Assembly (NCBI GenBank): GCA_026004195.1
Contig: BPIQ01000003.1
Location: 496,001-560,000, forward strand
DNA length: 64,000 bases
Direction: 5' to 3'
Source of the DNA: Candidatus Binatia bacterium
GTDB taxonomy: Bacteria; Desulfobacterota; Binatia; HRBIN30; BPIQ01
How positions within the stretch are numbered: position 1 is the stretch's first letter; every line of letters begins with the position of its first letter. The notes beneath the pieces are model-generated. The model was given only the letters and a program-made list of their open reading frames with translations. It searched no databases and was not told the origin of the DNA. Position numbers and translations under genes: made by a program. Below, piece after piece: positions 6,944 to 24,270 of the stretch.

Positions 6944-6953
6944 GGAGGCGGAC

Positions 6954-9383: not shown

Positions 9384-9407
9384 TTGACCGGCTGTGCCCG
9401 GCGATGA

Positions 9408-9642
9408 TTGGGGGGGCCGCCGCTTGACATCTCGCGGGGGTGGTCGTGGCTCGCCAAGTTCTGCCCTGGCTGCGGGGCTTCTCGTCGGGGCTTCCCGCCG
9501 TTCCACGGGGTCCGCTTCTGCCGGGAAGTGCGGACACGAATTCGCGTCCGTTCGGGGGGAGCTCGGTCGGGTCACCGGAGACCGACGGCCGGGGGAGCCC
9601 CGGCCCGGGCCGTTCCCCAAAGGAAACGAAAATTCTTATTGA
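9408..9642 (+). pseudogene. possible zinc-ribbon remnant with a frameshift
   Basis: The first part reads AKFCPGCGASRRGF then VRFCRE. In the next frame the sequence continues KCGHEFAS and runs to a stop at 9640-9642. Joined, C-P-G-C and C-x-x-C-G-H-E-F would form one zinc ribbon like those at the N-terminus of the cyclase gene at 1875-5261. One extra G near 9530 explains the break. The product would be about 75 residues. There is no clear ribosome site, so this may be chance. Confidence 0.3.
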
Positions 9643-9667
9643 CAACAAGCCCGCCGGGCGCTAAGTG
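9639..9667 (+). promoter_or_regulatory. promoter and possible operator of the catabolic run
   Basis: TTGACA (9639-9644) is a perfect -35 box, and TAAGTG (9662-9667) at a 17-base spacing is a weak -10. The spacer contains the 11-bp palindrome GCCCGCCGGGC (9649-9659), well placed for a repressor such as the XRE protein encoded 20 bases downstream. Confidence 0.45.
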
Positions 9668-9687
9668 TCGGCGCCAAGGGGGAGCCC

Positions 9688-10311
9688 ATGGCTCGGCGGG
9701 CCGAGGCGAAAAAGACGGTCGAGGCCGCGGCGGAAGACCGGCACCACATCTCGCTCCGCAAGGCGGCGGAGAAGTTCCGGCGCGCGCGCGAGGAGGCGGG
9801 GCTTTCGCTGCGGGAGCTCGGGGAGAAGGCCGGGCTCGCGCCGAGCACGATCCTGAAGGTCGAGCGCAGTCAGGTGATCCCGTCGCTCGCCGTCTGCATC
9901 CGGCTGGCCGACGCCCTCAACCGCAAGATCTCCTACTTCGTCGAGGAAGAGGACGCGACCGAGGACGTGCGGTTCGTCCCGCGCAACCGGGGCCGGCGGG
10001 CCTCGCCGCGCGGATCCCGCGTGGTGAGCGAGGTCGTGGCCGAGCCGCTCGTGAACCCCCGCATGGAGGCTTTTCTCTTGACGATCGCCCCCGGAGGGGA
10101 GAGCGGCCGGGAGGCGCCCATCGTCTACCGAGGGGAAGAGATCGTCTTCGGGCTCAAGGGCCGGGTCCACTTCGAGATCCGCGGCTCGCGCTACGTCGTG
10201 GGCCCCGGCGACACGCTCCACTTCAAGGGCGACATCCCCCACCGGTGGGAGAACCCGGGTCCGGGCGAAGCACGCATCCTGATGGTGTGTGCGTTCGGCT
10301 ACGAGAGGTGA
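9688..10311 (+). CDS. XRE-family transcriptional regulator with C-terminal cupin sensor
   Basis: The 207-residue protein has a helix-turn-helix at about residues 22-77 (EEAGLSLRELGEKAGLAPST, then ILKVERSQVIPSLA) and a cupin_2 barrel at about 125-203 (EIVFGLKGRVHFEI, then GPGDTLHFKGDIPHRWENPG). Such proteins bind DNA through the N-terminal domain and sense a small ligand in the cupin. It is the first gene of a 14-gene run and starts three bases before the crotonase gene ends its upstream spacer, so it probably controls that run. The upstream palindrome in the promoter spacer is a candidate autoregulatory site. The start has a purine-rich GGGGGAG site 5 bases upstream. Confidence 0.9.
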   Translation: MARRAEAKKTVEAAAEDRHHISLRKAAEKFRRAREEAGLSLRELGEKAGLAPSTILKVERSQVIPSLAVCIRLADALNRKISYFVEEEDATEDVRFVPRNRGRRASPRGSRVVSEVVAEPLVNPRMEAFLLTIAPGGESGREAPIVYRGEEIVFGLKGRVHFEIRGSRYVVGPGDTLHFKGDIPHRWENPGPGEARILMVCAFGYER

Positions 10312-10314
10312 CCG

Positions 10315-11115
10315 ATGGCCGAGTTCCCGCGGGTTCGCGTCGACCGGAGAGCGGACGGCGTCCGCCTGCTCGTCCTCGACGACCCCGAGCGGCGGAATGC
10401 CATGACCGCCCGCCTCCTTTCCGACTTCTCGGCGGCCGTGGCCGGCCTGGCTTCGGACCCGGAGGCCCGCGTTCTCGTCGTGACGGGAGCGGGAAAGCAC
10501 TTCTGCTCGGGCGCCGATTTTCGGGACCCGCCCGCGAGCGATCCGGAGCTACCGCCGGGGCTCCGCTTCCACGCGAGCGCCCGGGCCACGTACGGCGCCT
10601 TCCTCGGCCTTCTCGACCTCGAGATCCCCACGATTGCGGCCGTGAACGGCGCCGCGATCGGCGGCGGACTCGGGCTCGCGCTTCTCTGCGACCTTCGCGT
10701 GGTGGCCGAGGACGCCCGGCTCGGCGCCACCTTCGCGACGCTCGGGTTCCATCCGGGGATGGCGATTACCTATCTCCTGCCGCGGCTCGTCGGGCTTCCG
10801 CGCGCGGCCGAAATCCTTTTTACGGGCAGGGTCCTCGGGGGGCGCGAAGCTCTGGAGCTCGGGCTCGCCAATCGGTGCGTTCCTGCGGCGGAGCTTCTCG
10901 ATGCGGCGCTCGGGCTCGCCGGCGAAATCGCCGAGAAGGCCCCGCTTGCGATTCGTCTCATGAAGCGCGCCCTCTACCGGGCTCTCGACTTCGACCCGCG
11001 CGAGGCTGCCGAGTACGAAGCGCTGGCACAGGCGCTCACGCTCGAGAGCGAGGACGCGGGCGAAGGAATCCGCGCGCTTCTCGAAAAACGAAAACCCGTC
11101 TTCCGCGGAAGGTAG
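10315..11115 (+). CDS. enoyl-CoA hydratase/isomerase (crotonase) family protein
   Basis: The 266-residue length and the two oxyanion-hole segments, TGAGKHFCSGADF near residue 63 and NGAAIGGGLGLALLCDLR near 108, mark a crotonase. Enoyl-CoA hydratases use two glutamates, one in G-G-G-x-E-L and one in x-P-E-x-x-x-G. Here these positions read Gly (GGGLGLA) and a Phe-Ala-Thr stretch (ATFATLGFHPG), so neither is present. It is therefore more likely an isomerase, C-C bond lyase or thioesterase-type member than a simple hydratase. It begins 3 bases after the regulator gene. Confidence 0.85.
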   Translation: MAEFPRVRVDRRADGVRLLVLDDPERRNAMTARLLSDFSAAVAGLASDPEARVLVVTGAGKHFCSGADFRDPPASDPELPPGLRFHASARATYGAFLGLLDLEIPTIAAVNGAAIGGGLGLALLCDLRVVAEDARLGATFATLGFHPGMAITYLLPRLVGLPRAAEILFTGRVLGGREALELGLANRCVPAAELLDAALGLAGEIAEKAPLAIRLMKRALYRALDFDPREAAEYEALAQALTLESEDAGEGIRALLEKRKPVFRGR

Positions 11116-11183
11116 TAGCCGTGAGGAACATTCGGCCGACCGCTCTCGTGGGCTCCCGAAAAGGTAGGGAGGAGGTCTGAGCC

Positions 11184-12212
11184 GTGATCGATCTTCGCCT
11201 CGGACCCGAGGAGGAAATGATTCGCGAGACGGGGCAGGCCTTCGCGCGCGAAAGACTCCGGCCTGCGATGCGCGAACACGAGCGTCGCGGAAGCGTGGCG
11301 GCGGAAGTCGTCCGCGCGTACAGGGAACTCGGCTTCCCTACGATGGAAGCTCCGGAGTCTTTCGGCGGGCAGGGGGTCTCGCTTCTCTCGAAAGTGGTCC
11401 TCCTCGAGGAGATCGGCTGGGGAGACGCCGGGGCGGCCTTCGCCCTCGAGGGCGCGGGTCCGGGCCTGCGGGCGCTCGTGGAGCTGGGCGAGCGCGATCT
11501 TTGCGGCGATTTGCTCGCCGACCCGGCTTGCTACCTCGCGACGATCGTCGATTTCGCCGGGAGGATCGCGGTACGGGAGGGAAGGCTCGAGGGCAGGTTC
11601 CCCTTCGTGCCTGCATCGCCAAAGGGGCCCGTCGTCGTTCTTCTTCCCGAGGGGATTTTTCTCTGCCGCGAGGGAGTCCGCGTCTCGCGCGTCGAGGGGT
11701 GCGGCCTCGGGGCATCGGGGGCTTCGGAGGTCTCCTTCGACGGCACGCCCGCCGCCGCGACTTGCCGCGACCCGGCGGCGCTCGTCCGCTCCGTCGCCCA
11801 CGCGCGGCTCTTCGTCGCGGCCCTTCTCGTCGGAGTGGCCCGCGCGGCGACGGAGTACGCCATGCGCTACGCGCAGGAGCGCGTGGCTTTCGGGCGGCCG
11901 ATCGCCCATCACCAGGGGCTCGCCTTTCTCCTGACCGACATGGCGACGGCCGTGGACGCCGCCCGTCTTCTTCTCTGGCGCGCGGCGTTCGCCCCGGAAG
12001 CGGAGCTGGAGCGGCTCTCCGCGTGGGCGCTCGCCGAAGCCGCCGAAGCCGCGCTCTTCGTCGGCCCGAACGCCGTCCAGGTTCTCGGGGGCCACGGGTT
12101 CATGAAGGACCATCCGGTCGAGAAGTGGATGCGCGACATCCGCACCCTCGCCCAGCTCGCCGGAGGCCGGGACGAGGCGGAGCTCGTGGCAGCGGAGTGC
12201 GAGGCCCGATGA
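11184..12212 (+). CDS. acyl-CoA dehydrogenase-like subunit lacking the usual catalytic residue
   Basis: The 342-residue protein has the N-terminal helical domain (REL-G-F-P-T-M-E-A-P-E-S-F-G-G-Q-G) and the C-terminal helical domain (ERVAFGRPIAHHQGLAFLL, VQVLGGHGFMKDHPVEKWMR). The middle beta domain is short and lacks the T-E-P-x-A-G-S-D FAD motif. The catalytic Glu of Y-E-G-T-x-Q-I-Q is replaced by TLAQLAGG. It overlaps the next acyl-CoA dehydrogenase gene by four bases (ATGA). In known alpha2beta2 dehydrogenases of steroid catabolism one subunit has lost catalytic residues in this way, so this is probably the partner subunit of the next gene. Confidence 0.85.
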   Translation: MIDLRLGPEEEMIRETGQAFARERLRPAMREHERRGSVAAEVVRAYRELGFPTMEAPESFGGQGVSLLSKVVLLEEIGWGDAGAAFALEGAGPGLRALVELGERDLCGDLLADPACYLATIVDFAGRIAVREGRLEGRFPFVPASPKGPVVVLLPEGIFLCREGVRVSRVEGCGLGASGASEVSFDGTPAAATCRDPAALVRSVAHARLFVAALLVGVARAATEYAMRYAQERVAFGRPIAHHQGLAFLLTDMATAVDAARLLLWRAAFAPEAELERLSAWALAEAAEAALFVGPNAVQVLGGHGFMKDHPVEKWMRDIRTLAQLAGGRDEAELVAAECEAR

Positions 12213-13408
12213 TCTCCTTCGACGTCGACGAAAAGCTCGCGCAGCAGCTCGAGCGCGTGCGAACGCTCGGCAGGGAGTTCCTCCGTCCGCTCGGCATCGA
12301 AGCAGACCGGAAGGGCGAGGCCATCCCGGCCGATCACCCGTTCTTCGAGACGGCCTGGCGGCTCGGTATCGGAAGACTCGGTCCCGAGGAAGACGAAGAA
12401 GAGCGCCCCCGGTCGGGCGAGCGGACGGCGGCACGCCGGGGCGTCGTCCTCGGAGAAGAGCTGGCCTACTGGGACCGTGGAGCGGCGGTGGCCCTTCCGG
12501 GGCCGGGCCTCGGCGCGCCCCCCATCCGGAGGATGGGAACGCCGGAGCAGCGCGAGCGGTTTTTTGCTCCGTTCCGCGACCCTTCGCGTCCGCGCTGGGG
12601 TGCCTTCGCGATGACCGAGCCCGGCGCGGGGAGCGACGTGGCCGCGATCCGCACCCTCGCCCGCAAGGAGGGCGACGCGTGGGTCCTCGACGGGGCGAAA
12701 ACTTTCATCTCGAACGCCATCCGGGCCGAGTGGATCGTCGTGTGGGCCACGGTGGATCCCTCGGCCGGGCGCGCGGGGCACCGGGCCTTCGTGGTCGAAA
12801 AAGGCACCCCGGGTCTCGAAGACATGCGGGCCGAGCACAAGATGGGGCTCGTCGCTTACGAGAGCGCGTCGTTCACGCTGCGGCACTGCCGCGTGCCGGC
12901 CGAGAACCTCCTCGGCGGCGAGCGCTACTACGAGTCGAGAGCCGGCTTCAAAGGGGCGATGGAAAGCTTCAACGCGACCCGCCCCATGGTGGCCGCGATG
13001 GCCGTGGGCATCGCGCGGGCGGCTTACGACGCCGCGCGGGAGTTCGCGCGCGAGCACTTTCTTCTTTCGCGGCCTCTTCCCCGTCACCGCCGAGTGGCGG
13101 AAAAGCTCGCGCGGATGGCTCGGAAGATCGAGGCCGCGCGGCTTCTCTGCTGGAGAGCCGCCTCGCTCGCCGACGCGGAACGACCCAATCAGGTCGAGGC
13201 GTCGATGGCCAAGGCGTTCGCGCCCGCGATCGCGCAGGAAGCCGCGGGTCTCGCCGTCGAGGTGATGGCCGAGGCGGGCGTGCGGCAGGACCACTATGTC
13301 GAGAAGCTCTACCGGGACGTGAAAGCCATGGACATCGTCGAGGGGACGGGTCAGATCCAGCGCATCGTCGTCGCGCGCCGCCTCCTCGGGTATCCGGCGA
13401 GCGGTTGA
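12209..13408 (+). CDS. acyl-CoA dehydrogenase, catalytic subunit
   Basis: The 399-residue protein has a full acyl-CoA dehydrogenase layout. FAMTEPGAGSDVAAI near residue 135 binds FAD and substrate, WVLDGAKTFISNA follows, and the C-terminal DIVEGTGQIQRIVVARRLLG carries the catalytic Glu. It removes two hydrogens from an acyl-CoA to give a 2-enoyl-CoA, passing electrons to an electron-transfer flavoprotein not encoded in this window. The start ATG overlaps the stop of the preceding dehydrogenase-like gene, pointing to equimolar synthesis and a heteromeric enzyme. Confidence 0.93.
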   Translation: MISFDVDEKLAQQLERVRTLGREFLRPLGIEADRKGEAIPADHPFFETAWRLGIGRLGPEEDEEERPRSGERTAARRGVVLGEELAYWDRGAAVALPGPGLGAPPIRRMGTPEQRERFFAPFRDPSRPRWGAFAMTEPGAGSDVAAIRTLARKEGDAWVLDGAKTFISNAIRAEWIVVWATVDPSAGRAGHRAFVVEKGTPGLEDMRAEHKMGLVAYESASFTLRHCRVPAENLLGGERYYESRAGFKGAMESFNATRPMVAAMAVGIARAAYDAAREFAREHFLLSRPLPRHRRVAEKLARMARKIEAARLLCWRAASLADAERPNQVEASMAKAFAPAIAQEAAGLAVEVMAEAGVRQDHYVEKLYRDVKAMDIVEGTGQIQRIVVARRLLGYPASG

Positions 13409-13443
13409 GGGAATTTTCGGGCTCGAAGAAAGGAGGGAGAAAG

Positions 13444-14538
13444 ATGGCACTCAAGTTCGGAATGCTCCACCTCCTCGAAAACCCGGTCGGGAAGACCGAG
13501 GCGCAGGTCGTGGCCGAACAGATGGAAATCCTGGCGGCGGCGGAAGGCTACGGTTTCGACTCGGTGTGGCCGGCCGAGCATCACTTCTCCGAATACGGCT
13601 ACTGCGTCTCGACGGCGCTCATGCTGGCCGCGCTGGTGCCGATCACGAAAAAGATCCGGCTCGGCACGGGCATCGTGATCCTGCCCTTCCACAACCCCAT
13701 CCGTGTGGCCGAAGAATTCGCGCTCCTCGACATCATGAGCGGAGGGCGCGTCGACTTCGGCATAGGCCGCGGCTACCAGCCGCACGAGTTCCGGGGCTAC
13801 GGGGTCGACCAGACGAAGTCCCGGGAGCTCTTCCGGGAGTCCATCGACATCATCCTGCAGGCGTGGACCCGGGAGCGGGTGGACTACGAGGGGCAGCACT
13901 ACCGTTTCCACGACGTGATGGTGCGTCCCAAGCCTCTCCAGAAGCCGCACCCTCCCGTCTGGATGGCGGCGCTCACCCCGCCGAGCTTCGAGGAAGCGGG
14001 CCGGCGAGGGTTCAACCTGCTGTGCGCCCCGGTTTTCGGTTTCGGCGGCTCGAGCGCCGCCGAGCAGCTCGAGTCCTACCGCCGCGCGTTGCGCGCGGCC
14101 GGACACGATCCCGCGAAAAAAGAGATCGCCGCGCTCTGCATGATCTACTGCGCCGAGTCCACCGAAGAAGCGCAAAGGGATTTCGCGGAGCCCGTCATCT
14201 GGTACTACCGGACGTTCAGCAAGTACATCGCGCCGCCGCCGGGCGAGGCTCCCGTCCGGACCTACGAGCCCTATGCCGGCGTGCGCGACCTGGCGGCGAC
14301 CGTGACCTGGGAGACGCTGCTGCAGGCGGGGGCCGTCGTCTGCGGCGATCCGGACCACTGCGTCCGGCGGATCCGGGAGCTCCAGGAAATCTTCGGCTTC
14401 ACGACTCTTCTCTGCTGGACCCGGCTCGGCGGCTTCGATCACAAGAAAGTGCTCCGCAGCATGGAGCTCATGCAGCGCCACGTGATCCCGCATTTTCGGG
14501 ACGGTGCCGCCACCCGTACGGCTGCGGGAGCGGCGTGA
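13444..14538 (+). CDS. luciferase-like (LLM class) flavin-dependent monooxygenase
   Basis: The 364-residue protein is a bacterial-luciferase-type TIM barrel. Visible marks are GFDSVWPAEHHFSEYGY, IRLGTGIVILPFHNPIRVAE, SGGRVDFGIGRGYQPHE and RPKPLQKPHPPVW. These enzymes oxidise substrates with reduced FMN or F420. It closely resembles the gene at 19,318 in the same run, including the EHHF motif, so the two may act on successive intermediates or as a pair. ATG 13444 follows a GAAAGGAGG site. Confidence 0.9.
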   Translation: MALKFGMLHLLENPVGKTEAQVVAEQMEILAAAEGYGFDSVWPAEHHFSEYGYCVSTALMLAALVPITKKIRLGTGIVILPFHNPIRVAEEFALLDIMSGGRVDFGIGRGYQPHEFRGYGVDQTKSRELFRESIDIILQAWTRERVDYEGQHYRFHDVMVRPKPLQKPHPPVWMAALTPPSFEEAGRRGFNLLCAPVFGFGGSSAAEQLESYRRALRAAGHDPAKKEIAALCMIYCAESTEEAQRDFAEPVIWYYRTFSKYIAPPPGEAPVRTYEPYAGVRDLAATVTWETLLQAGAVVCGDPDHCVRRIRELQEIFGFTTLLCWTRLGGFDHKKVLRSMELMQRHVIPHFRDGAATRTAAGAA

Positions 14539-14539
14539 G

Positions 14540-15661
14540 ATGGATCGAGGCCGGGCGGCGGTTTTCCTCGGTCCGGGAAAGCCCTTCGAACTGCGGGAAT
14601 ACCCCCTCCCGGACCCGCCCGAACGCGGCCTCGTGGTTCGCGTCACCCAGGGCAACATCTGCGGCTCGGACCTCCACTTCTGGCGGGGAGACCTGGGCGA
14701 GCTCGGAAAGATCCCTCCGAGCATCCTCGGGCACGAGGGGACCGGGCGCATCGCGAGGCTCGGAGACGGGGTCCGAACCGACTCGCTCGGTGTTCCCGTC
14801 CGGGAAGGCGACCGCATCGTCTGGGTCTACTATCGTGCTTGCGATCGCTGCCGGCCGTGCCTTCGCGGACTTCCCAACGCTTGCGCGCAGGCGCTCCTTT
14901 CGGTCGTGCGTCCGTGCGACGAGCCGCCGCACTTCTTCGGGACCTTCGCCGATGCCTACTGCCTTCTCCCGGGCCAGAAGTTCTTCCGGGTCCCGGACGA
15001 CCTCGACGACCACGCGGTCGCGGGGGCCAACTGCGCGCTCGCTCAGGTCGTCTACGGCCTGGAAAAAGCGGGTCTCGGCTTCGGGGAGACCGTCGTCGTC
15101 CAGGGGGCGGGGGGGCTCGGTCTCTACGCGACGGCCGTCGCGCGGGAGATGGGGGCGGAGCGGATCGTCGTCGTGGACGCGATCCCGGAAAGGCTCGAGC
15201 TCGCGCGCGAGCTCGGAGCGGACCACGTGGTCGACGCCTCCGAGATCACGGACCCCCGCGCGCGGACGGCCCGCGTTCTCGAACTGACCGACGGCTGGGG
15301 AGCCGACGTCGTCGTGGAGGTCGTGGGGTCGCCGCACGTGATTCCCGAGGGGATCCGCATGCTCGCGCGCGGCGGGCGCTACCTCGAGATGGGAAGCATC
15401 GCCCCGAGGCAGACCTACAAGCAGGATCCCTCGATCCTGGTGGGCCCCAACCGGTCGATTCTCGGCGTTTCCCTCTACCCGGCCTGGGCCCTCAAAAAGG
15501 CGCTCGACTTTCTCTCGAGAACGCGCGGCCGCTTCCCCCTCGAGCGGATCGCTTCGACCGTCTATCCGCTCGAGAAAATCGACGAGGCTTTTCGGGTGGC
15601 CGACGCTTTCTCCCGGAGGCCCGCGGGCGTGACGCGGGTCGGGATTCGCCCGGAGGCTTGA
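14540..15661 (+). CDS. zinc-dependent alcohol dehydrogenase (MDR family)
   Basis: The 373-residue protein has the catalytic zinc site (NICGSDLHFWRGD and ILGHEGTGRI) and a structural zinc cluster in CDRCRPCLRGLPNAC. The nucleotide-binding Rossmann motif is VVVQGAGGLGLYATAVA. It should oxidise an alcohol or reduce a carbonyl with NAD(P). ATG 14540 lies one base after the previous stop; an in-frame start at 14504 would add 12 residues overlapping the monooxygenase gene. The aldehyde dehydrogenase that follows overlaps its stop by one base, suggesting an alcohol to aldehyde to acid sequence. Confidence 0.9.
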   Translation: MDRGRAAVFLGPGKPFELREYPLPDPPERGLVVRVTQGNICGSDLHFWRGDLGELGKIPPSILGHEGTGRIARLGDGVRTDSLGVPVREGDRIVWVYYRACDRCRPCLRGLPNACAQALLSVVRPCDEPPHFFGTFADAYCLLPGQKFFRVPDDLDDHAVAGANCALAQVVYGLEKAGLGFGETVVVQGAGGLGLYATAVAREMGAERIVVVDAIPERLELARELGADHVVDASEITDPRARTARVLELTDGWGADVVVEVVGSPHVIPEGIRMLARGGRYLEMGSIAPRQTYKQDPSILVGPNRSILGVSLYPAWALKKALDFLSRTRGRFPLERIASTVYPLEKIDEAFRVADAFSRRPAGVTRVGIRPEA

Positions 15662-17154
15662 TGGACCACGCGGGAGCACTCGCCCGGATGGGCCTTCCGA
15701 GAAGGTTCGGCTTCTGGATCGGCGGCGAGTTTCGCCAGGCGCAGAGGACCCTCGGGACGGTCGATCCCTCGACCGGAGAGGAAATCGCCGAGATCGGCGA
15801 CGCCACGCCCGCGGACGTGGATGCGGCCGTCCGTGCGGCCCGCGAAGCCTTCGAGAAGCGCTGGAGCCGCTCCTCGGCGTCGGAGCGCCGGCGGGTTCTT
15901 CTGCGGCTTGCGGAAGCCCTGGAACGCCACGCCGAAGAGCTCGCCACGCTCGAGAGCCTCGACGTCGGGATGCCGATCGTCTTCGCCCGGCGTTTTTCCG
16001 TGCGGGCTCTCGTTCGGAACCTCGAGTACTACGCCTCGTGGACGGACAAGATCTACGGCGAGGTGGTCCCGCTGCCCGGGAGCGAGAAGGCTCTCGACTA
16101 CGCGGTTCGCGAGCCCTTCGGCGTCGTGGCGGCCATCACCGCGTGGAACACGCCGAGCCTTTTTCTGGGCTCGAAGCTGGGTCCCGCCCTCGCCACCGGC
16201 AACACGGTCGTCGTGAAGCCCTCGGAGCTGGGGTCGCTCACGGCGCTTCGCTTCGCGGAGATCTGTCTCGAGGCGGACGTTCCGCAGGGTGTCGTGAACG
16301 TGATCACGGGAGGGCCCGAGGCGGGGTCGGCGCTCGTTTCGCACCCGGGGGTCGACAAGATCTCGTTCACCGGTGGAAGCGAGACGGGCAGGAAGGTGAT
16401 GGCTGCTGCGGCCTCCCACCTCGCCAAACCGACGCTCGAGCTCGGGGGAAAGTCGGCGCACATCGTCTTCGCGGACGCCGACCTCGAGCGTGCCGTCCCG
16501 GCGGCGGCCATGGGGGCTTTCTTGCTTTCCGGGCAGGCCTGCGCGGCCGGGAGCCGGCTTTTCGTCGAGGAACCTCTGTACGGGACGTTCCTCGAGCGAC
16601 TCGTGGAGTTCACGAAGAACCTCCCCCTGGGCGACCCGCTCGAAGAAAAGACGCTTCTCGGCCCCCTCGTCTCGGCCCGGCAACTCGAGAGGGCCCTGGG
16701 CTACGTCCGGAGCGGTCTCGAAGACGGGGCGCGGCTTCTCTCGGGGGGCGACCGCCCGGCGGAGCTCGGCCGCGGCTTTTTCCTGCGTCCGGCGATCTTC
16801 GACCGGGTACGCCCCGAGATGCGCATCGCCCGGGAAGAGATTTTCGGCCCGGTGCTTTGCGTTTTCCCTTTCCGGGCACTCGACGAAGTGCTGGAACGGG
16901 CGAACGACACGCCCTACGGGCTCGCCGCCGGAGTGTGGACCAGGGACCTGGGTCGTGCCCACCGCGTGGCCTCCGCGCTCCGAGCCGGCACCGTCTGGGT
17001 GAACACGTACGGGGTTCTTCCCTACACGGCTCCTTTCGGGGGATACAAGGAGAGCGGGATGGGACGCGAAGCGGGGAAAGAAGCGCTCCTGGAATACACG
17101 CAGGTGAAGAACGTCTACGTGGATCTTTCCGCCGGGAAACCCGGAAGCGGTTGA
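15661..17154 (+). CDS. NAD(P)-dependent aldehyde dehydrogenase
   Basis: The 497-residue protein has all usual landmarks of the family: PFGVVAAITAWNTPSLF, KPSELGSLTALRFAEI, FTGGSETGRKVM, the general base Glu in LELGGKSAHIV and the nucleophile Cys in SGQACAAGSRLF, then EEIFGPVLCVFPF and PFGGYKESGMGRE. It oxidises an aldehyde to the acid. The first A of its ATG is the last base of the preceding dehydrogenase stop, so the two are translationally coupled. Confidence 0.95.
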   Translation: MDHAGALARMGLPRRFGFWIGGEFRQAQRTLGTVDPSTGEEIAEIGDATPADVDAAVRAAREAFEKRWSRSSASERRRVLLRLAEALERHAEELATLESLDVGMPIVFARRFSVRALVRNLEYYASWTDKIYGEVVPLPGSEKALDYAVREPFGVVAAITAWNTPSLFLGSKLGPALATGNTVVVKPSELGSLTALRFAEICLEADVPQGVVNVITGGPEAGSALVSHPGVDKISFTGGSETGRKVMAAAASHLAKPTLELGGKSAHIVFADADLERAVPAAAMGAFLLSGQACAAGSRLFVEEPLYGTFLERLVEFTKNLPLGDPLEEKTLLGPLVSARQLERALGYVRSGLEDGARLLSGGDRPAELGRGFFLRPAIFDRVRPEMRIAREEIFGPVLCVFPFRALDEVLERANDTPYGLAAGVWTRDLGRAHRVASALRAGTVWVNTYGVLPYTAPFGGYKESGMGREAGKEALLEYTQVKNVYVDLSAGKPGSG

Positions 17155-17178
17155 ACCGGAAAGGAGGGGACACTCCGC

Positions 17179-18168
17179 ATGCTTTACAGCAAAATCTGCG
17201 ACCTTTTCGGAATCGAAGTGCCGATCGTGCTCGCGGGCATGGGCGGCGTGTCGATGGCGGAGCTCGTGGCGGCCGTATCGAACGCCGGCGGGCTCGGCGT
17301 CATCGGTGCGGCGACGCTCGACGCCGAAGGACTCCGCCGCGAGATCCGCAAGACGCGCGAGCTCACGGACCGACCCTTCGGGGTCGACCTTCTCGCCCCG
17401 ATCCCCGACATGATCCGCCCCCAGATGCAGGTGATTTTCGAGGAAAAGGTCCCGATCTTCGTGGCGGGCCTCGCCGTTCCGCGTGACTTCATCGAGGAGA
17501 TGCACGAGCGGGGCATGCTGGTGATGGTGATGGTGGGAAAGGTGCGCCACGCGCTCGCTGCCGAAGCGGCCGGCGCGGACGTCGTGGCCGCACAGGGCAC
17601 CGAAGCCGGCGGGCACACGGGCGAGATCGGGACCCTGGCGCTCGTGCCGCAGGTCGTCGACGCCGTGAAGATCCCCGTTCTGGCCGCCGGGGGAATCGCC
17701 GACGGGCGCGGCGTGGCCGCGGCGCTCGCGCTCGGTGCCCAGGGGGCCGTGATCGGCACGCGCTTCATCGCGACTCCCGAGGCGCAGGCCGCGCCGGCCT
17801 ACCGGGAGACGCTGGTTCGGGCGACCGGGGAGGACACCGTGCGCACGCGCTGCTACACGGGGAAGCCCGCCCGCGCCATCCGAAACCCGTACATCGCCGA
17901 GTGGGAGCGCCGTGCCCACGAGATCCAGCCCTTTCCGATGCAGGCCGTCCACTCCATGCAGGCCGGCGTCATGGACTACATGGGGGTGCGCGGCGACGCG
18001 GACCCGCAGCGCACGTTCATGCCCGCGGGGCAGGGCGTCGGTCTCGTTCACGAGGTGAAGCCGGCCGGCGAGGTGCTCCGCGACATCGTGGACGAGACCG
18101 TGCAGGTGCTTCGCGGAATGGGGAAGTTCCTCCGGGAAGAGAAGGCGGCGAGGGCCGCCCGCTCGTAG
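17179..18168 (+). CDS. nitronate monooxygenase-like flavoprotein (NPD family)
   Basis: The 329-residue FMN-binding TIM barrel shows GIEVPIVLAGMGGVSMAELV, a G-x-L-G-V-I-G-A-A segment, AQGTEAGGHTGE with the catalytic His, PVLAAGGIADGRGVAAALAL and GAVIGTRFIATPEA. Characterised members oxidise nitronates to carbonyl plus nitrite; related enzymes are enoyl reductases such as FabK. In this context, with acyl-CoA genes, an oxygenase or enoyl-reductase role is as likely as nitro-compound detoxification. A GGAAAGGAGGGG site precedes ATG 17179. Confidence 0.88.
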   Translation: MLYSKICDLFGIEVPIVLAGMGGVSMAELVAAVSNAGGLGVIGAATLDAEGLRREIRKTRELTDRPFGVDLLAPIPDMIRPQMQVIFEEKVPIFVAGLAVPRDFIEEMHERGMLVMVMVGKVRHALAAEAAGADVVAAQGTEAGGHTGEIGTLALVPQVVDAVKIPVLAAGGIADGRGVAAALALGAQGAVIGTRFIATPEAQAAPAYRETLVRATGEDTVRTRCYTGKPARAIRNPYIAEWERRAHEIQPFPMQAVHSMQAGVMDYMGVRGDADPQRTFMPAGQGVGLVHEVKPAGEVLRDIVDETVQVLRGMGKFLREEKAARAARS

Positions 18169-18191
18169 GGGCACGGAAAGCGAGCGTGTCC

Positions 18192-19295
18192 ATGCCCCGG
18201 AAAACGCGAGCGATCGTCCAGACGGCCCCGAGGAAGTTCGAACTTCGGGAGTTCCCGATTCCCGAGATCGACGACGAGAGCGCGATCCTGCGAGTGGAAG
18301 CGTGCGGCATCTGCGGGAGCGACGCCGAGCAGTACGCCGGGACTCTCCCGGTCCGCTATCCCGTCATCCCGGGCCACGAACCCGTCGGCGTGATCGAGAA
18401 GATCGGGGACAAGGCGGCCCGGCGCTGGGGCGTGGACGTCGGGGACCGTGTGGCGGTGGAGGTCCTGATTCCTTGCGGCCGCTGCCCCGCGTGCGTCTCC
18501 GGCCGCTATCAGGTCTGTCGCGGCCGCGGCGGGATGTTCGGCTACGGCTACGTTCCCGTGGATCACCCCCCTGGTCTCTGGGGCGCCTACGCCGACTACA
18601 TGTTTCTCGACCCCTTCTCCCTGGTCCACAAGGTTCGAAAAGACATCCCCGCCTCGCTGGCCGTGCTCTTCAACCCTCTCGGGGCCGGGTTCCGCTGGGC
18701 TGTCGAAATCCCCCGCACGGGCCCCGGGGACACGGTGCTCGTTCTCGGTCCCGGACAGCGGGGGCTTGCGAGCGTCGTGGCCGTGCGTGCCGCGGGAGCG
18801 GACACGGTCGTGGTGACGGGCCTTTCCCGCGACGCGCGCAAGCTCGAGCTCGCCCGCGAGCTCGGTGCGGATGACACGATCGACGTGGAGCGGGAAGACG
18901 CGCGGGCGCGTGTCCGGGAGATCACGCGCGGAAAAGGCGCGGACGTCGTGGTGGAGGTGTCGGCGAACTCGCCCGAGCCCGTGGCCGAGGCGCTCCACTA
19001 CGTGGCCGCCGGCGGGCGGATCGTGCTCGCGGGCGTCAAGGGGTTCAAGCCGGTCCCCGACTTCGTGAGCGACCTCGTCGTCGTGAAGGAGGCGACGATT
19101 TACGGGGCTTTCGGCGTCACGAGCCGGGCCTACCGCTCGGCCATCCGGCTTCTCGAGTCGGGTCGCGTGCCCCTCGAGAAGATGCACACCCACGACTTCG
19201 GACTCGAGGAGGCGGAGTACGCGGTGCGGCTTCTCGCCGGAGAAATCCCTGGAGAGCAGAGCATCCACTCCTGCCTTCTTCCCGCGAAAGGTTAG
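18192..19295 (+). CDS. zinc-binding dehydrogenase (MDR family), second copy in the run
   Basis: The 367-residue protein carries the catalytic zinc elements CGICGSDAEQY and VIPGHEPVGVIE, the structural Cys cluster CGRCPACVSGRYQVC, and the cofactor motif VLVLGPGQRGLASVVAVRAAGA. It differs clearly from the dehydrogenase at 14,540, so it probably acts on another intermediate. A GTG at 18186 is an alternative start adding two residues. Confidence 0.88.
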   Translation: MPRKTRAIVQTAPRKFELREFPIPEIDDESAILRVEACGICGSDAEQYAGTLPVRYPVIPGHEPVGVIEKIGDKAARRWGVDVGDRVAVEVLIPCGRCPACVSGRYQVCRGRGGMFGYGYVPVDHPPGLWGAYADYMFLDPFSLVHKVRKDIPASLAVLFNPLGAGFRWAVEIPRTGPGDTVLVLGPGQRGLASVVAVRAAGADTVVVTGLSRDARKLELARELGADDTIDVEREDARARVREITRGKGADVVVEVSANSPEPVAEALHYVAAGGRIVLAGVKGFKPVPDFVSDLVVVKEATIYGAFGVTSRAYRSAIRLLESGRVPLEKMHTHDFGLEEAEYAVRLLAGEIPGEQSIHSCLLPAKG

Positions 19296-19317
19296 GGCCT
19301 CGAAGGAGAAAAGAGCG

Positions 19318-20382
19318 ATGAAATTCGCCGTGTTCAGCCTCATGCAGTGGCCCGAGGATCGTTCCTCCCTGGACGTTTTCCGAAACGAGCTTTCCCAGCT
19401 CGTCCTCGCCGAAGAGCAGGGATACGACGCCGCCTGGCTCGCCGAGCACCACTTCTCCCGCTACGGCATCGCGCCTTCGATCCACCTGAACGCCGCCTAC
19501 CTGGCCGCCAGGACGAAAAAGCTGCGGATCGGAACGGCGGTCACGATCCTTCCCTTCTTTCACCCCCTCCGGGTGGCCGAGGAAATCGCGATGCTCGACC
19601 ATCTCTCGGAGGGTCGAATCGACTGGGGGGTGGGCCGCGGTTACCAGGGACACGAGTTCGCGGGCTTCGGCGTCGACATCACGCAAAGCCACCTTCTTTT
19701 TCGCGAGCAGCTCGAGATCGTCCGAGGGGCGTGGACGAACGAGCGCTTCGGTTACGAGGGGAAGTTCTTCCGCTTCGAGCCTCTCGAGGTTCTCCCCAAG
19801 CCGGTCCAGAAACCGCACCCCCCGATCCGGGTCGCCGCCATTTCCCCTTCGACGCTCGAGTGGGCCGCCGACCACGGCTATCCGGTCCTGACCGATCAGT
19901 TCTCGCCGACGGACCGGATCGCCGAAATGCGCGGCGTGTACTTCGAAAGGCTCCGGAAAGCCGGGATCGACCCCGGGTCTTTCGAGCTGCCCGTGCTGCG
20001 GCACGTCTACGTGGGAAAGACGTTCGCCCGCGCGAGAGAAGAAGCCCGGCCCGCGCTCCTCTGGTACTACCGGGCGCTCGCGCGCGTCGGCTCGCCGGGA
20101 GGCCCGAGCGGCAAGATTCCGGAGAATTACTCGTTTTACCGGCTGTTCGGCGAGGGGTACTTCGACCCGGACCGCGACCCCGACGGCTTTTGCGCTTTCC
20201 TTTTCGACCAGTGCACGATCGTGGGGGACGCGGCCTTCTGCCGGGAGAAGATCGCCGAGCTCCGGGAGCGCTGCCGTCTCGACTATCTCATCGCCTGGCA
20301 GAACTTCGGGTGCCTGCCCCACGAGGCGACGCTCGAATCGCAGAAGCGTCTGATCGAAGAAGTGGCGCCGGCTTTCCGGTAG
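19318..20382 (+). CDS. luciferase-like (LLM class) flavin-dependent monooxygenase, second copy
   Basis: The 354-residue barrel shows AAWLAEHHFSRYGIAPSIHL, KLRIGTAVTILPFFHPLRVA, EGRIDWGVGRGYQGHEFAGF and PKPVQKPHPPIRVAAISPS. These segments align with the monooxygenase at 13,444, showing the two are paralogues within one transcription unit. The flavin (FMN or F420) cannot be decided from sequence. It lies 22 bases after the dehydrogenase gene and 28 before the PhyH gene. Confidence 0.9.
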   Translation: MKFAVFSLMQWPEDRSSLDVFRNELSQLVLAEEQGYDAAWLAEHHFSRYGIAPSIHLNAAYLAARTKKLRIGTAVTILPFFHPLRVAEEIAMLDHLSEGRIDWGVGRGYQGHEFAGFGVDITQSHLLFREQLEIVRGAWTNERFGYEGKFFRFEPLEVLPKPVQKPHPPIRVAAISPSTLEWAADHGYPVLTDQFSPTDRIAEMRGVYFERLRKAGIDPGSFELPVLRHVYVGKTFARAREEARPALLWYYRALARVGSPGGPSGKIPENYSFYRLFGEGYFDPDRDPDGFCAFLFDQCTIVGDAAFCREKIAELRERCRLDYLIAWQNFGCLPHEATLESQKRLIEEVAPAFR

Positions 20383-20410
20383 TTCGGGCCTCGCAGCGGG
20401 AGAGACGGAA

Positions 20411-21184
20411 ATGGTGCTGTCCGAGGAACTACGAAGGGCCTTTGCGGAGGCGGGATTTTTCCGGCTCGAGCGCGTGTTCGACGAAAGCGAGCTCTCGGAG
20501 ATGCGCTCGGCCTACGACGAGATCCTGGCCCATCCCCTCCTTCTCGGAGAACAAGGCAAGGGAAAATTCCAGTACAGCCCCCTTCTTCACATCCAGAGTC
20601 CCGTGCTTTGCCGGTACGCCACTTCTCCGAAGCTCGTGGGGTTAGCCGTCGAGCTTCTCGGGCCCGACGTTCGGCTCTACTGGGACCAGGCGGTCTCGAA
20701 GCCCCCCGGCGCCACGTCGGACGTTCCGTGGCACCAGGACAACGGGTACACCGCCGTCGACCCGCCGGAGTACGTGACCTGTACCGTGGCTCTCGACGAC
20801 TCCACGGTCGAGAACGGCTGCCTCTGGATCCAGCCCGGGAGCCACCGCCACGGCGTCCTTGCGCATCGTCCGACGGACTTTTTCTTCCAGGTGGGCTACG
20901 AAGGTCCCGCGACCGGCGTTCCGGTCGAGGCCAGGGCGGGCGACGTCGTCGTGTTCTCGTCCTTGACGCTTCACAGGACCGGCCCGAACCTTTCCGATCG
21001 CCCGCGTCGCTCGTGGGTCGTGCAGTTCTGTCGAGCCGACGCGAAAAACGCCGAGACCGGAAAGCCGTTCGACGACCGGCTTCTCGTGGCGCGAGGAGGA
21101 AAGGTTCTGCGGGAGCCCCTTCGGGAAAGGCCGTTCGACCTCTCGGGGAGTTTTCGCGGGCGGTCGGGCCGCCTCCCGTCCTGA
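20411..21184 (+). CDS. phytanoyl-CoA dioxygenase (PhyH) family protein
   Basis: The 257-residue protein has the Fe(II)/2-oxoglutarate site of the PhyH family: VPWHQDNGY supplies His and Asp, SSLTLHRTGPN the second His, and the Arg-Ser of R-R-S-W-V-V-Q-F should bind 2-oxoglutarate. Other marks are CLWIQPGSHRHG and AGDVVVFSS. Family members hydroxylate phytanoyl-CoA or varied small molecules. Its place among acyl-CoA genes fits a hydroxylation of a branched or cyclic acyl chain, but the substrate is unknown. Confidence 0.88.
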   Translation: MVLSEELRRAFAEAGFFRLERVFDESELSEMRSAYDEILAHPLLLGEQGKGKFQYSPLLHIQSPVLCRYATSPKLVGLAVELLGPDVRLYWDQAVSKPPGATSDVPWHQDNGYTAVDPPEYVTCTVALDDSTVENGCLWIQPGSHRHGVLAHRPTDFFFQVGYEGPATGVPVEARAGDVVVFSSLTLHRTGPNLSDRPRRSWVVQFCRADAKNAETGKPFDDRLLVARGGKVLREPLRERPFDLSGSFRGRSGRLPS

Positions 21185-21192
21185 CTCGGGCC

Positions 21193-21954
21193 ATGCGGAT
21201 CGACCTCGGGACGCACGAGCTTCGCCTCCGGGAGGCCGGGCGCGGAGATCCGGTTTTTCTCTGCCTTCACGGCCTCGCCGACACCGGCGAGATCTGGTCG
21301 AAGCTCGTCCCGCATCTCGCGGCGCACGGGCGCGTTCTGTCGCTCGACCAGCGGGCTCACGGGTCTTCGGGGGCGCCGCCGGGCCCTTACCGGCGGGAAG
21401 ACCTCGCGGCCGACGTCGTCGCCGTGCTCGACCGTGTGGGAGTCCGGAAAGCCGTGCTCGTCGGTCACTCGATGGGCGGCGTCGTGGCGCTCACCACGGC
21501 GCTCGCGTATCCGGAGCGCGTGGCGGGGCTCCTTCTGCTCGGCACGACGAGCCAGTGCAGCCGGCAGGCCGCCGAGTGGTACGAGAAAATCGCGCGGGCT
21601 GCCGAAACCGACGGGATCGAGGGGTTCCGGAGGGCGATCTACGGCCGGGTGGAAAAGACGATCGAGGGCGACGCGCAGGGTCTCGCGCACGTGACCCGCT
21701 GCCTTCGGAGTCTCCACGGAGACCCCCTGACTCCGAGGCTCGGGGAGTTGCGATGTCCCGCCTGTTTTCTCGTCGGGTCGAAGGACCCCATGGGGACGAA
21801 AGCGTCGGAAATCGCGGCGGCCGCCGTCCCGGGCGCCGAGCTCGAGGTGCTCGAGGGTCACGGTCACTGGCTTCACGTCGAGGCGCCGGAGAAGGTGGCG
21901 CTCGCGGCGCTGAGACTTCTCCGAAGGATCGAGGGAAAAGGAGGAGAGGCATGA
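21193..21954 (+). CDS. alpha/beta hydrolase
   Basis: The 253-residue protein shows FLCLHGLADTGEIWSKLVPH with the oxyanion-hole HG, the nucleophile elbow GHSMGGVVALTTA, a likely acid in VGSKDPMG and the catalytic His in EGHGHWLHVEAPEKV. It may cleave an ester, lactone or C-C bond made by the upstream oxygenases, as in lactone hydrolysis after a Baeyer-Villiger step. It overlaps the following thioesterase gene by four bases. Confidence 0.9.
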   Translation: MRIDLGTHELRLREAGRGDPVFLCLHGLADTGEIWSKLVPHLAAHGRVLSLDQRAHGSSGAPPGPYRREDLAADVVAVLDRVGVRKAVLVGHSMGGVVALTTALAYPERVAGLLLLGTTSQCSRQAAEWYEKIARAAETDGIEGFRRAIYGRVEKTIEGDAQGLAHVTRCLRSLHGDPLTPRLGELRCPACFLVGSKDPMGTKASEIAAAAVPGAELEVLEGHGHWLHVEAPEKVALAALRLLRRIEGKGGEA

Positions 21955-22817
21955 GCGACGATCGCCGCGCGGACCCCGTGGAAAATCTCGAGCTTTCGCC
22001 CTACGCGTCGCGCCTCGGCGTCGTCGTCGAGGAAGTGAGGGCCGATTCCGCGAGGATTCGCATCCCGTACAAGGACGAGAACTCGAACCCCGGAAAAGCC
22101 CTCCACGGTGGTGTGGCGGCGTCGGCGATCGAGCTCGCCGGGTCTCTTGCCGCGGGGAGCTCCGGGGAGAAGGGGCGGGCGGTCGACCTCGCGGTTTCGT
22201 ACCTCGCCGCCGCGATCGGGGAGGACATCGTGGCGGAGGCGTCCGTTCTGCGCCGAGGCAAGAGCATCGTCTACACGGAGGTGGACGTGCGGAACGAGGG
22301 CGGGAAGAGGATCGCGAAAGGGCTTCTCACCTGGCGATCTCTCGGCTCTTCGTCCGAGGAGGCAGGGGAGCCGAAGAAACGGAGTAGCCGAGAGCTTTCG
22401 GTCGGAGAAGGTCGGGTCCCCGATCTCGCGAGGGCGCTCGTGCGGGTTCCTTTCATCGCTCGGCTGGGCCTCGTGATCGAGCACATGGAGGGAGGCGACT
22501 CCCGGATCCGGCTTCCGGCACGACCCGAGAACCTCGGCGAAGACGGGGCGGCGGACGAGGGTGCTCTCGCCGCGCTGCTGGATACGACCGGGGCCATGGC
22601 GGCGTGGTCCGTCGTGGGGCTCGACCTCCGTTACAAGGCTTCGACGGTGGGCATCCACGTGAGCTTCCACGAGCGGCTCCCCGGAGAAGAACTTCTGGCT
22701 TTCGGCCGCAACCTCTACCGCGAAGGGGTCATGTTTCTCGACGAAGTCGTCGTGGCGGGAGCGCGCAGCGGCGTCGTCGCGGCCACGGGCTCGGTGACCT
22801 ATCGCATCGTGACGTGA
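21951..22817 (+). CDS. double hotdog-fold thioesterase (PaaI-like), tandem fusion
   Basis: The 288-residue protein contains two hotdog domains. The first, residues about 15-135, has NPGKALHGGVAASAIELAGS, the H-G-G catalytic pattern of PaaI thioesterases, and AVDLAVSYLA. The second, about 155-288, has DEGALAALLDTTGAMAAW, VGIHVSFHERLPGEELLAFG and a terminal GSVTYRIVT strand but no H-G-G. Thus one half seems active and the other degenerate or modified. It should hydrolyse an acyl-CoA. The start overlaps the hydrolase stop (ATGA). Confidence 0.85.
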   Translation: MSDDRRADPVENLELSPYASRLGVVVEEVRADSARIRIPYKDENSNPGKALHGGVAASAIELAGSLAAGSSGEKGRAVDLAVSYLAAAIGEDIVAEASVLRRGKSIVYTEVDVRNEGGKRIAKGLLTWRSLGSSSEEAGEPKKRSSRELSVGEGRVPDLARALVRVPFIARLGLVIEHMEGGDSRIRLPARPENLGEDGAADEGALAALLDTTGAMAAWSVVGLDLRYKASTVGIHVSFHERLPGEELLAFGRNLYREGVMFLDEVVVAGARSGVVAATGSVTYRIVT

Positions 22818-22935
22818 GGGGACGGTCGTGCTTCGCGGGGTCTCGCGAGGTTTACCGTTCGGGCCGTGCGTCCGAGCTCGAGCCGGTTTTCCTCGCGGAA
22901 GAACCGGCCGGACGGCCCGGAGCTGAGGCGTTCGC

Positions 22936-24270
22936 GTGGAAAAGGCCGCCGACTGGAGAGCTCTTCTCGGACGGAAGCTCGTCACCCCCGACGAGGCCGT
23001 GCGGCACGTTCGCCCGGGGAGTCTCGTCCGTCTGCCGCTCGGGCCGGTTCCGCTGACCCTTCTCGAAGCGCTCGCCCGCCGTAAGGGCGAGCTCGAAGGC
23101 GTTCGCGTCCTGCAAGGTGCGACGGCGGCACCCCACCCCTGGACGCGGGAACCTTCCGCCTGGCACGGGATCGTGGATTACGTCACGGACTTCGCCTCCG
23201 TACTCGTCCGCGACGCGGTCGCGGGACGCTGGGCCGATTTCCTCGTGACGGACTATTCGATCGGCTCCAGGGTGCGCGAAGGCGGCCGGCGGGACAACTG
23301 GTCCGCCGACGCGTTTTTCGCCCTCGTCTCGGAACCGGACGAGACGGGAACGGTGGGCTTCGGCTACAGTCTCTGGCACTCCCGATCGCTTCTGCGCTCG
23401 GCGAAGCTCCGGGTCGCGGAAGTGGCCAGGGGCGTTCTCCGGACGTGCGGAGAGAACGCCGTCGCCCTCGACGAGTTCGACCTCGTCGTGGAGTCCACCG
23501 CGGCGCCCCGGGAGTCCCGCTCTCCCTACCCTGCTCTTTCGCCGGAACGGGTAGAGGTGACCGAAACGGTCGGCGCCTACGTTTCTACCCTCGTTTCCGA
23601 CGGGGACACGGTGCAGATCGGGACGGGCACGCTTTCTTCGTGCATGGGGGGTTATCTCGAGGGGAAGCGAGACCTCGGCATCGATTCGGAGATCCTCGTG
23701 GCCTCGGCGGTCGAGCTGGTGAAAAAGGGTGTCGCGACCGGGATCCACAAGACCTACCATCCCGGCGTCGCCACGGGTTCGTTCATCGTGCCGGGAGCGG
23801 ACTTTGCTTTCTGCCACCGAAATCCCCGGATTGCGCTCTACGACATCGAATGGGTGAATCACCTTCCGAGAATCGCGAGCATCCGGAACCTGGTCGCGAT
23901 CAACCAGGCGTCGGCGATCGACCTGACGGGACAGGTGGCCTCGGAGTCCATCGGGGCGACGATGTACACCGGCCCGGGCGGCCAGCTCGTCTGGACCATG
24001 GGGGCGCTTCTCGCACCGGGAGGCCGTGCGGTTCACGTTCTTCCTTCCACGGCCCGGCGCGGGCAGGTGTCCCGGATCGTTCCGGAACTCCCGGGCGGCA
24101 CCGTGGTCACGGTGCCTCGCACGTTCGTCGATTTCGTCGTGACGGAGTACGGGATCGCGAATCTCCAGGGACTCACGCAGCGCGAGCGGGCACTCGCCCT
24201 CGTGGACCTCGCGCACCCGAAGTTCCGGGCTTGGCTGCGGTCGGAGGCGCGGCGGCGGTTCTGGCCTTGA
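22936..24270 (+). CDS. acetyl-CoA hydrolase/transferase family CoA-transferase
   Basis: The 444-residue protein fits the 4-hydroxybutyrate CoA-transferase/acetyl-CoA hydrolase family: DGDTVQIGTGTLSSCMGGY, TYHPGVATGSFIVPGADFAF, SESIGATMYTGPGGQLVWTM and a C-terminal VTEYGIANLQGLTQRERALA. It would move CoA between acids, giving substrate activation or release. No AMP-forming ligase is in the run, so this may be the entry step. It stands 118 bases after the thioesterase gene and may have its own start. GTG 22936 is used as start. Confidence 0.85.
   Translation: MEKAADWRALLGRKLVTPDEAVRHVRPGSLVRLPLGPVPLTLLEALARRKGELEGVRVLQGATAAPHPWTREPSAWHGIVDYVTDFASVLVRDAVAGRWADFLVTDYSIGSRVREGGRRDNWSADAFFALVSEPDETGTVGFGYSLWHSRSLLRSAKLRVAEVARGVLRTCGENAVALDEFDLVVESTAAPRESRSPYPALSPERVEVTETVGAYVSTLVSDGDTVQIGTGTLSSCMGGYLEGKRDLGIDSEILVASAVELVKKGVATGIHKTYHPGVATGSFIVPGADFAFCHRNPRIALYDIEWVNHLPRIASIRNLVAINQASAIDLTGQVASESIGATMYTGPGGQLVWTMGALLAPGGRAVHVLPSTARRGQVSRIVPELPGGTVVTVPRTFVDFVVTEYGIANLQGLTQRERALALVDLAHPKFRAWLRSEARRRFWP

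Follow-up and report, generated by a model that had tools for sequence, protein, structure and literature searches.

Among the described systems closest to the locus analysed here, a run of 14 genes at positions 9688-24270 of a 64-kb stretch of DNA (hereafter the window; contig C3:496001-560000) from the 3.63-Mb, six-contig genome of a Candidatus Binatia bacterium, are the chn-type cyclohexanol/cyclohexanone operons, which encode an alcohol dehydrogenase (ADH), a Baeyer-Villiger monooxygenase (BVMO), a lactone hydrolase, a second ADH and an aldehyde dehydrogenase (ALDH), the BVMO being a type I flavoprotein. The run resembles the chn operons in this ADH-BVMO-lactone hydrolase-ADH-ALDH logic; however, luciferase-like monooxygenases (LLMs) would here replace the type I BVMO, and the run adds a pair of acyl-CoA dehydrogenases (ACADs) and a CoA-transferase. 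Type II Baeyer-Villiger systems offer a second point of comparison. Diketocamphane enzymes have been classified as type II alongside luciferases (PMC8706424), and the Baeyer-Villiger oxidation of progesterone has been reported for an LLM of Caenibius tardaugens, in whose gene cluster, by that account, no reductase could be assigned (PMC12239570). As in these systems, luciferase-like oxygenases stand in what is here a putative catabolic cluster, whereas the first of them, LLM1, is only distantly related in sequence (57 bits to 3,6-diketocamphane monooxygenase).

Steroid degradation provides the third comparison. The alpha2beta2 ACADs described from steroid degraders (ChsE4/ChsE5, ChsE1/ChsE2, Scd1AB, IpdE1/IpdE2) have the catalytic Glu in one subunit only and flavin adenine dinucleotide (FAD) at the interface (PMC8399759), and CasC, a fusion, has the Glu in one domain and depends on the second for FAD (PMC8399759; bile-acid degradation review). 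In the steroid C/D-ring pathway (HIP pathway), the FabK-like IpdC (30% identical to S. pneumoniae FabK), the crotonase-family ring hydrolase EchA20 and finally IpdAB, a predicted CoA-transferase acting as ring hydrolase, are described as acting in turn (PMC5380842). The run shares with the steroid ACADs two adjacent chains of which only one has the Glu, and with this KstR2 regulon type of pathway a FabK-like flavoenzyme, a crotonase (atypical in the run) and split ACADs. It differs from the HIP pathway in having a CoA-transferase of the 4-hydroxybutyrate type and, in addition, two LLMs, a PhyH-family oxygenase, a hotdog thioesterase and two Zn dehydrogenases.

The one-strand run with its stated gene families, first pointed out in the first-pass annotation, is real: all 14 open reading frames (ORFs) lie on the plus strand, and Pfam recognizes HTH and cupin, ECH_1, two acyl-CoA dehydrogenase, two Bac_luciferase, two zinc ADH, Aldedh, NMO, PhyH, alpha/beta hydrolase, 4HBT and acetyl-CoA hydrolase/transferase C-domain families (Table 1). 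Most of these genes are ordinary and it is their combination that is unusual; searches of Creative Commons-licensed PMC articles listed no such gene set, in keeping with the annotation's view that no described pathway has this exact set. Genes 1-13 are spaced by 1-68 bp or overlap, with the Zn dehydrogenase ZnA counted from its likely start (ATG 14540, 1 bp after LLM1, rather than GTG 14504), and a 118-bp gap, in which the terminator scan listed no terminator-like site, separates the thioesterase HotD from the CoA-transferase, which starts with GTG. The certain overlaps are found at three junctions (ACADa/ACADb, 4 bp; ZnA/ALDH, 1 bp; alpha/beta hydrolase/HotD, 4 bp), fewer than the "many" first announced, and the GC content (~0.67-0.70) is that of most of the window. 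Catalytic motifs, with the functions that we take them to have, were found in the LLMs, PhyH, ALDH, the CoA-transferase, the Zn dehydrogenases and the hydrolase.

The strongest new points are, in our view, the mosaic nature of the run, its split ACAD pair and the recurring LLM company of this pair. The two ACAD chains are complementary. The catalytic Glu378 of ACADb is kept in all 21 rows of its alignment (20 relatives chosen from 28 at hand), while at this position ACADa is non-acidic in 16 of 19 rows, with Glu in two and Asp in one, these three being the most distant rows. R233, F236, G237, Q244, Q299, G302, G303 and G305 of ACADa, which we take to be FAD contacts, are invariant (19/19 rows), and the same residues are kept at the aligned positions of ACADb in 1, 0, 3, 6, 0, 18, 1 and 18 of 21 rows, respectively, so that only G302 and G305, two of the eight, are mostly kept in both chains. 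The predicted fold of ACADa (pLDDT 93.6) has ACADs as its Foldseek matches, and the two genes are neighbours in eight of 11 relative loci, LLM1 standing between them in the genomes G003, G006 and G010. By their residues, ACADa and ACADb thus look like one enzyme in two halves, with the sequence features of the steroid-type alpha2beta2 ACADs. The pair is a specific argument for a bulky acyl-CoA substrate, which adds to the initial suggestion that a branched, cyclic or terpenoid acid is broken down; this suggestion is compatible with the data, although the gene set behind it is partly scattered in relatives.

The second point is the company that this pair keeps. ACADa has a match in 17 other genomes. 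Longer neighbourhoods were examined for 11 of them, and in nine of these 11 same-class loci (five families) the pair has an LLM within 5 kb, the two others being G060, on a contig of 3.65 kb, and G016. Of 20 same-class control loci chosen around HotD or the CoA-transferase, one has an LLM within that distance (Fisher p = 2.5e-5, uncorrected for relatedness and with a locus choice that was not blind, G003, G006, G010 and G037 having been known beforehand to have LLM1 near). The LLM match in G002 is weak (52 bits), and several ACAD and control stretches stop within 5 kb at contig ends. Over all 17 genomes, an LLM is found beside the pair in at least nine. In G085, a genome of another family with 8% contamination, crotonase, ACADa, ACADb and LLM follow each other on one strand in the order of the window, then a dienelactone hydrolase, the LLM being closer to LLM3, a gene downstream of the run, than to LLM1; G002 has the gene kinds of this locus in divergent order, and in G037 LLM1, ACADa and ACADb are followed by a PhyH-family gene. 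The link between LLM and ACAD pair is hence recurrent, not universal.

Regarding the run as a whole, comparison with relatives shows it to be, as judged from gene order and identity, a patchwork and not one conserved block, a conserved core being joined to separately occurring modules (ZnB with the double-hotdog thioesterase; the alpha/beta hydrolase; the CoA-transferase). In the large-family genome searches 4, 5, 17 or 18 candidates per genome were scored, so that counts are lower bounds and absences in these broad searches are not firm, only part of the candidates having been scored. Six genes are found together in G003, G006 and G010, three genomes of one genus in the same order as the window genome: XRE-cupin (61-63% identity), ACADa (39-57%), LLM1 (74-76%), ACADb (63-65%), ZnA (55-57%) and ALDH (59-61%), with the XRE-cupin orthologue heading the core operon in all three. 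The ACADa gene of the G003 operon seems interrupted by one TAA, the G006 and G010 matches being without stop. The remaining eight run genes had no match in these core stretches.

To count the ZnB-HotD module, we took the 17 relative genomes whose HotD relative is full-length and at least 37% identical, setting aside two genomes in which the match is weaker or partial, as well as a weaker second copy. ZnB lies within 300 bp of HotD on the same strand in 10 of the 17 and within 5 kb in one more, and does not in six; the pair is also present in three of four named metagenome-assembled genome (MAG) loci found by HotD (L032, L033 and L034, not L031). No ZnB adjoins the closest HotD relatives (G047, G034 and G007; 50-59%), and in the window three genes stand between the two. 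As for the hydrolase, L032 has a relative (60%) 0.9 kb downstream of its HotD gene, and a crotonase (41%) precedes ZnB there; another hydrolase relative (63%) adjoins the CoA-transferase in G034. CoA-transferase orthologues (66-69%) occur in eight genomes in stretches without core-gene orthologues.

Such independent occurrence of ZnB-HotD and of the CoA-transferase speaks for a rather unlikely but serious alternative, namely that two or three unrelated short catabolic units (the ACAD/LLM1/ZnA/ALDH core, ZnB/hotdog, the CoA-transferase) lie end to end and have no common substrate. The tight spacing of the first 13 genes on one strand and the gap without terminator-like site argue against it, as do accessory functions that are tied to the core elsewhere: PhyH adjoins the ACAD pair in G037, a lactone-type hydrolase is near the pair in G002 and G085, and an ALDH (40%) precedes ZnB-HotD in G030 and G037. 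In any case, the 14-gene run is not to be read as one pathway without proof, and the pieces of the mosaic are testable apart.

Our preferred reading, held tentatively and with somewhat less than even confidence, is that the gene content represents a composite catabolic operon, the favoured substrate being a bulky alcohol, ketone or acid with a cyclic or branched structure (terpenoid-, steroid-fragment- or naphthenic-like). In the order of steps that we infer, PhyH would hydroxylate a ring or chain carbon, which one of the Zn dehydrogenases would turn into a ketone; an LLM would open the ring by a Baeyer-Villiger reaction and the alpha/beta hydrolase would bring about the hydrolytic opening that follows. 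The other Zn dehydrogenase and ALDH would then convert the freed alcohol into an acid and the CoA-transferase this acid into a thioester, in which ACADa and ACADb, as an alpha/beta complex, would put a double bond. A hydrolytic or isomerising reaction and a reductive one might fall to the crotonase without Glu and the FabK-like flavoenzyme, stalled thioesters could be freed by the hotdog thioesterase, and the XRE-cupin protein may be the sensor of the substrate or of an intermediate.

Several observations weigh against this reading. In the genomes of the three core-bearing relatives, PhyH (E<=1e-30), LLM2 (E<=1e-80, 17 candidates scored) and HotD (E<=1e-25) had no match and the CoA-transferase (67-69%) sits on a different contig from the core; the 14 genes therefore need not serve one pathway. 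The first-pass annotation had named scattering in close relatives as what would speak against its own proposal, and this scattering is partly observed: the six core genes stay together, while the CoA-transferase and the three unmatched genes do not follow them, and elsewhere ZnB and HotD pair up separately. For LLM2, no match at E<=1e-80 was obtained in the other 117 genomes (at most 17 candidates per genome scored). Moreover, no flavin reductase, thiolase or classical 3-hydroxyacyl-CoA dehydrogenase was recognized by Pfam among the 14 genes. No LLM was seen in the short flanks (~0.05-1.5 kb) of ACADa in G011, G019, G054, G059, G075 and G081, nor in those of the second ACAD copies of G047 and G085. 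In four named MAG genomes, an LLM is near the pair in one of five loci (L199, not L200, L201, L202 or L203; L204, in which no ACADa matched, was left out), and six of six stretches of other families holding LLM1 orthologues of 54-67% (L110-L115) gave no ACAD match. Finally, LLM chemistry is too varied to be fixed by homology. These L110-L115 stretches (families f12 and f15) also have no homologue of the ADHs or ALDH of the run.

LLM1 and LLM2 score 252.5 and 244 bits with Bac_luciferase (PF00296), and their best PDB matches are the LLM 7bip and luciferase alpha chains, not F420 enzymes. Both keep the EHH and RG motifs, which we presume to have their usual meaning, and on sequence grounds both are classed as luciferase-like oxygenases of the flavin mononucleotide (FMN) type. 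The genome has three flavin-reductase matches (PF01613), on contigs C2 and C4 and none on the window's contig. A further alternative, in our estimate a very improbable one, is organosulfur catabolism, in which the LLMs would cleave a C-S bond like alkanesulfonate or sulfone monooxygenases and the ACADs would be desulfinase-like. SsuD/SfnG-type enzymes belong to the LLM family and their models are matched, and an LLM has been proposed for 4-mercaptobutyrate oxidation in Rhodococcus (PMC5157978). ACADb reaches 150 bits on the 3-sulfinopropanoyl-CoA desulfinase model, but this is far from the 600 bits required; for both LLMs the top scores go to luciferase-alpha-type enzymes rather than to SsuD/SfnG, and the dehydrogenase Glu that ACADb keeps throughout its alignment also argues against desulfination.

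Among the enzymes of the run, the crotonase stands out by its catalytic residues. At the two positions that we take to be catalytic, which are occupied by Glu in solved hydratases according to PDB alignments, it carries Gly (GGGLGLAL) and Phe (ATFATLGFHPG), and hence lacks both residues expected of an enoyl-CoA hydratase. The crotonases beside the ACAD pair in G002 and G085 have the same GGGLG(L/V)AL and LGFHxG pattern, and a crotonase subfamily with this pattern and no canonical Glu adjoins split ACAD pairs in three families. The NMO-like protein, as it was initially named, does match NMO in Pfam but is more closely described as FabK-like, its best PDB match being an FMN enoyl-ACP reductase (FabK), with 275.6 bits on the FabK model (cut-off 453.1). 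The alpha/beta hydrolase scores 107-120 bits with PcaD-type enol-lactonase models, below their cut-offs. The predicted structure of HotD (mean pLDDT 90.1), with thioesterase II/TesB-type enzymes as best PDB matches, bears out its early naming as a double hotdog thioesterase. The only CoA-transferase of the run belongs to PF13336; its best PDB relatives are 4-hydroxybutyrate CoA-transferases, one of which aligns over 11-442, and it scores 163.2 bits on the curated butyryl-CoA:acetate CoA-transferase model (cut-off 674.8).

With ADH, ALDH, CoA-transferase and ACAD all in the run, the catabolism of a linear or methyl-branched isoprenoid alcohol (e.g., phytol- or farnesol-like) has to be considered: a Zn dehydrogenase and ALDH would yield the acid, the CoA-transferase would activate it, the ACAD pair and the crotonase would carry out beta-oxidation, and the LLMs would oxidise the aldehyde or ketone end, the LLM family including luciferase-type aldehyde oxidation. 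We regard it as improbable: the crotonase has neither hydratase Glu, no alpha-oxidation lyase was recognized by Pfam among the 14 genes, and PhyH is nearer to EvdO2/SnoK-type oxygenases (best PDB match EvdO2, 4.6e-19) than to phytanoyl-CoA dioxygenase (2a1x, 4.8e-12), the relative expected for alpha-oxidation.

Returning to the preferred reading of a ring- or branch-degrading operon, it can be compared with steroid ring cleavage. ACADa scores 45.5 bits on the curated IpdE2 model, far below its cut-off of 450, the partner genes of the run differ, and none of the 14 genes encodes an IpdAB-type CoA-transferase. HsaD gave 15 weak matches in the genome, the best at 60.7 bits and none over the cut-off of 400, in a search without positive control (13 of 14 control genomes match weakly, none over the cut-off). 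With HsaD and IpdE2 both below cut-off, steroid degradation proper was rejected and is retained as an analogy only: the run may work like a steroid ring-cleavage pathway, but by these tests it does not belong to one. A broader proposition, which we consider doubtful, is that a recurrent, undescribed type of ring-opening pathway exists in this class and some of its neighbours, in which a type II Baeyer-Villiger LLM, a steroid-type split ACAD, a Glu-less crotonase acting as C-C hydrolase and a lactone-type hydrolase would act on (poly)cyclic terpenoid acids outside the known steroid degraders. If true, an LLM beside a split ACAD pair, together with a Glu-less crotonase and a lactone-type hydrolase, would be a signature flagging the degradation of bulky cyclic natural products in uncultured bacteria, and the split steroid-type dehydrogenase would be extended to other chemistry.

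Plasmid relatives were rejected as an annotated version of the cluster: ZnB has one Rhodococcus match (46%), LLM1 is at best 37% identical to a Rhodococcus gene and LLM2 39% to the same gene, and the plasmid search gave no match for ACADb (E<=1e-90) or ACADa (E<=1e-15). The Rhodococcus neighbourhood L117 encodes LLMs together with an ACAD, a flavin reductase, a CoA ligase and a hydrolase but represents a different cluster, and the pNL2 stretch inspected for the published LLM Saro_3594 has no annotated LLM within it.

Upstream of the regulator, the block ATTGACAACA lies at ~50 bp in the window and at ~41 bp from the orthologues of G006, G010 and G003, and it is the only 14-mer block with at most three mismatches in all three relatives within 300 bp. 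The block hints at a common promoter or operator, and the likeness could be partly due to chance, because three of the four genomes belong to one genus and only two independent lineages are compared. A global alignment of the upstream regions left the window copy out of register, and a generic scan for sigma-70 sites detected none in 9300-27500. An EamA transporter was considered as belonging to the cluster and dropped: after the core, G003, G006 and G010 have a gene identified by eye as EamA-like, and another lies downstream in the window, with a similarity not beyond chance (best E 0.047).

Table 1. Genes of the run, its upstream block and possible extensions (window coordinates).
Feature	Position	Strand	Basis or remark
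Promoter/operator-like block ATTGACAACA	9630..9690	+	Perfect TTGACA; also present ahead of the orthologous XRE genes in G006, G010, G003
XRE-cupin transcription regulator	9688..10311	+	Pfam HTH_3 + Cupin_2
Crotonase-fold protein without either canonical catalytic Glu	10315..11115	+	ECH_1; PDB alignments
ACADa, ACAD chain with FAD-contact residues, no catalytic Glu	11184..12212	+	Pfam, alignment, predicted fold
ACADb, ACAD chain that retains catalytic Glu378 but not several of the FAD-contact residues	12209..13408	+	Pfam, alignment
LLM1, luciferase-like (FMN-type) monooxygenase	13444..14538	+	Bac_luciferase; PDB matches; EHH and RG motifs
ZnA, zinc-dependent alcohol dehydrogenase	14540..15661 (ORF reaches GTG 14504)	+	ADH_N/ADH_zinc_N
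Aldehyde dehydrogenase (ALDH)	15661..17154	+	Aldedh 577 bits; GQAC catalytic Cys motif
NMO/FabK-like FMN enzyme	17179..18168	+	Pfam NMO; FabK model; PDB FabK
ZnB, zinc-dependent dehydrogenase	18192..19295	+	Pfam; elsewhere often a separate module with HotD
LLM2, second luciferase-like monooxygenase	19318..20382	+	Bac_luciferase; 37% identical to LLM1
PhyH-family Fe(II)/2-oxoglutarate oxygenase	20411..21184	+	Pfam PhyH; HxD and distal H present
Alpha/beta hydrolase (ABH), candidate lactone/ester hydrolase	21193..21954	+	Abhydrolase_1
HotD, double-hotdog (TesB-like) thioesterase	21951..22817	+	4HBT; predicted structure
CoA-transferase, 4-hydroxybutyrate CoA-transferase type, loosest run member	22936..24270	+	PF13336; PDB relatives
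Double HxlR regulator, possible cluster extension	24994..25707	+	Pfam, two HxlR stretches
LLM3, F420-type luciferase-like oxidoreductase, possible extension	25704..26612	+	TIGR03619 over cut-off

Around the run, a cytochrome P460 gene (24546-25259, minus strand) stands before the HxlR-LLM3 pair, a relative of LLM3 adjoins ZnB-HotD-XRE in L034, and a further luciferase-like oxidoreductase is encoded at 55110-56045 on the minus strand. Upstream, at 6218-7682 (GC 0.57), the ORF of a BglII-type restriction endonuclease (PF09195) overlaps that of an MT-A70-family type II methyltransferase, the two being possibly an acquired restriction-modification pair, and at 1875-5261 a zinc-ribbon, an adenylate-cyclase domain and an AAA ATPase are combined in one protein of 1128 residues.

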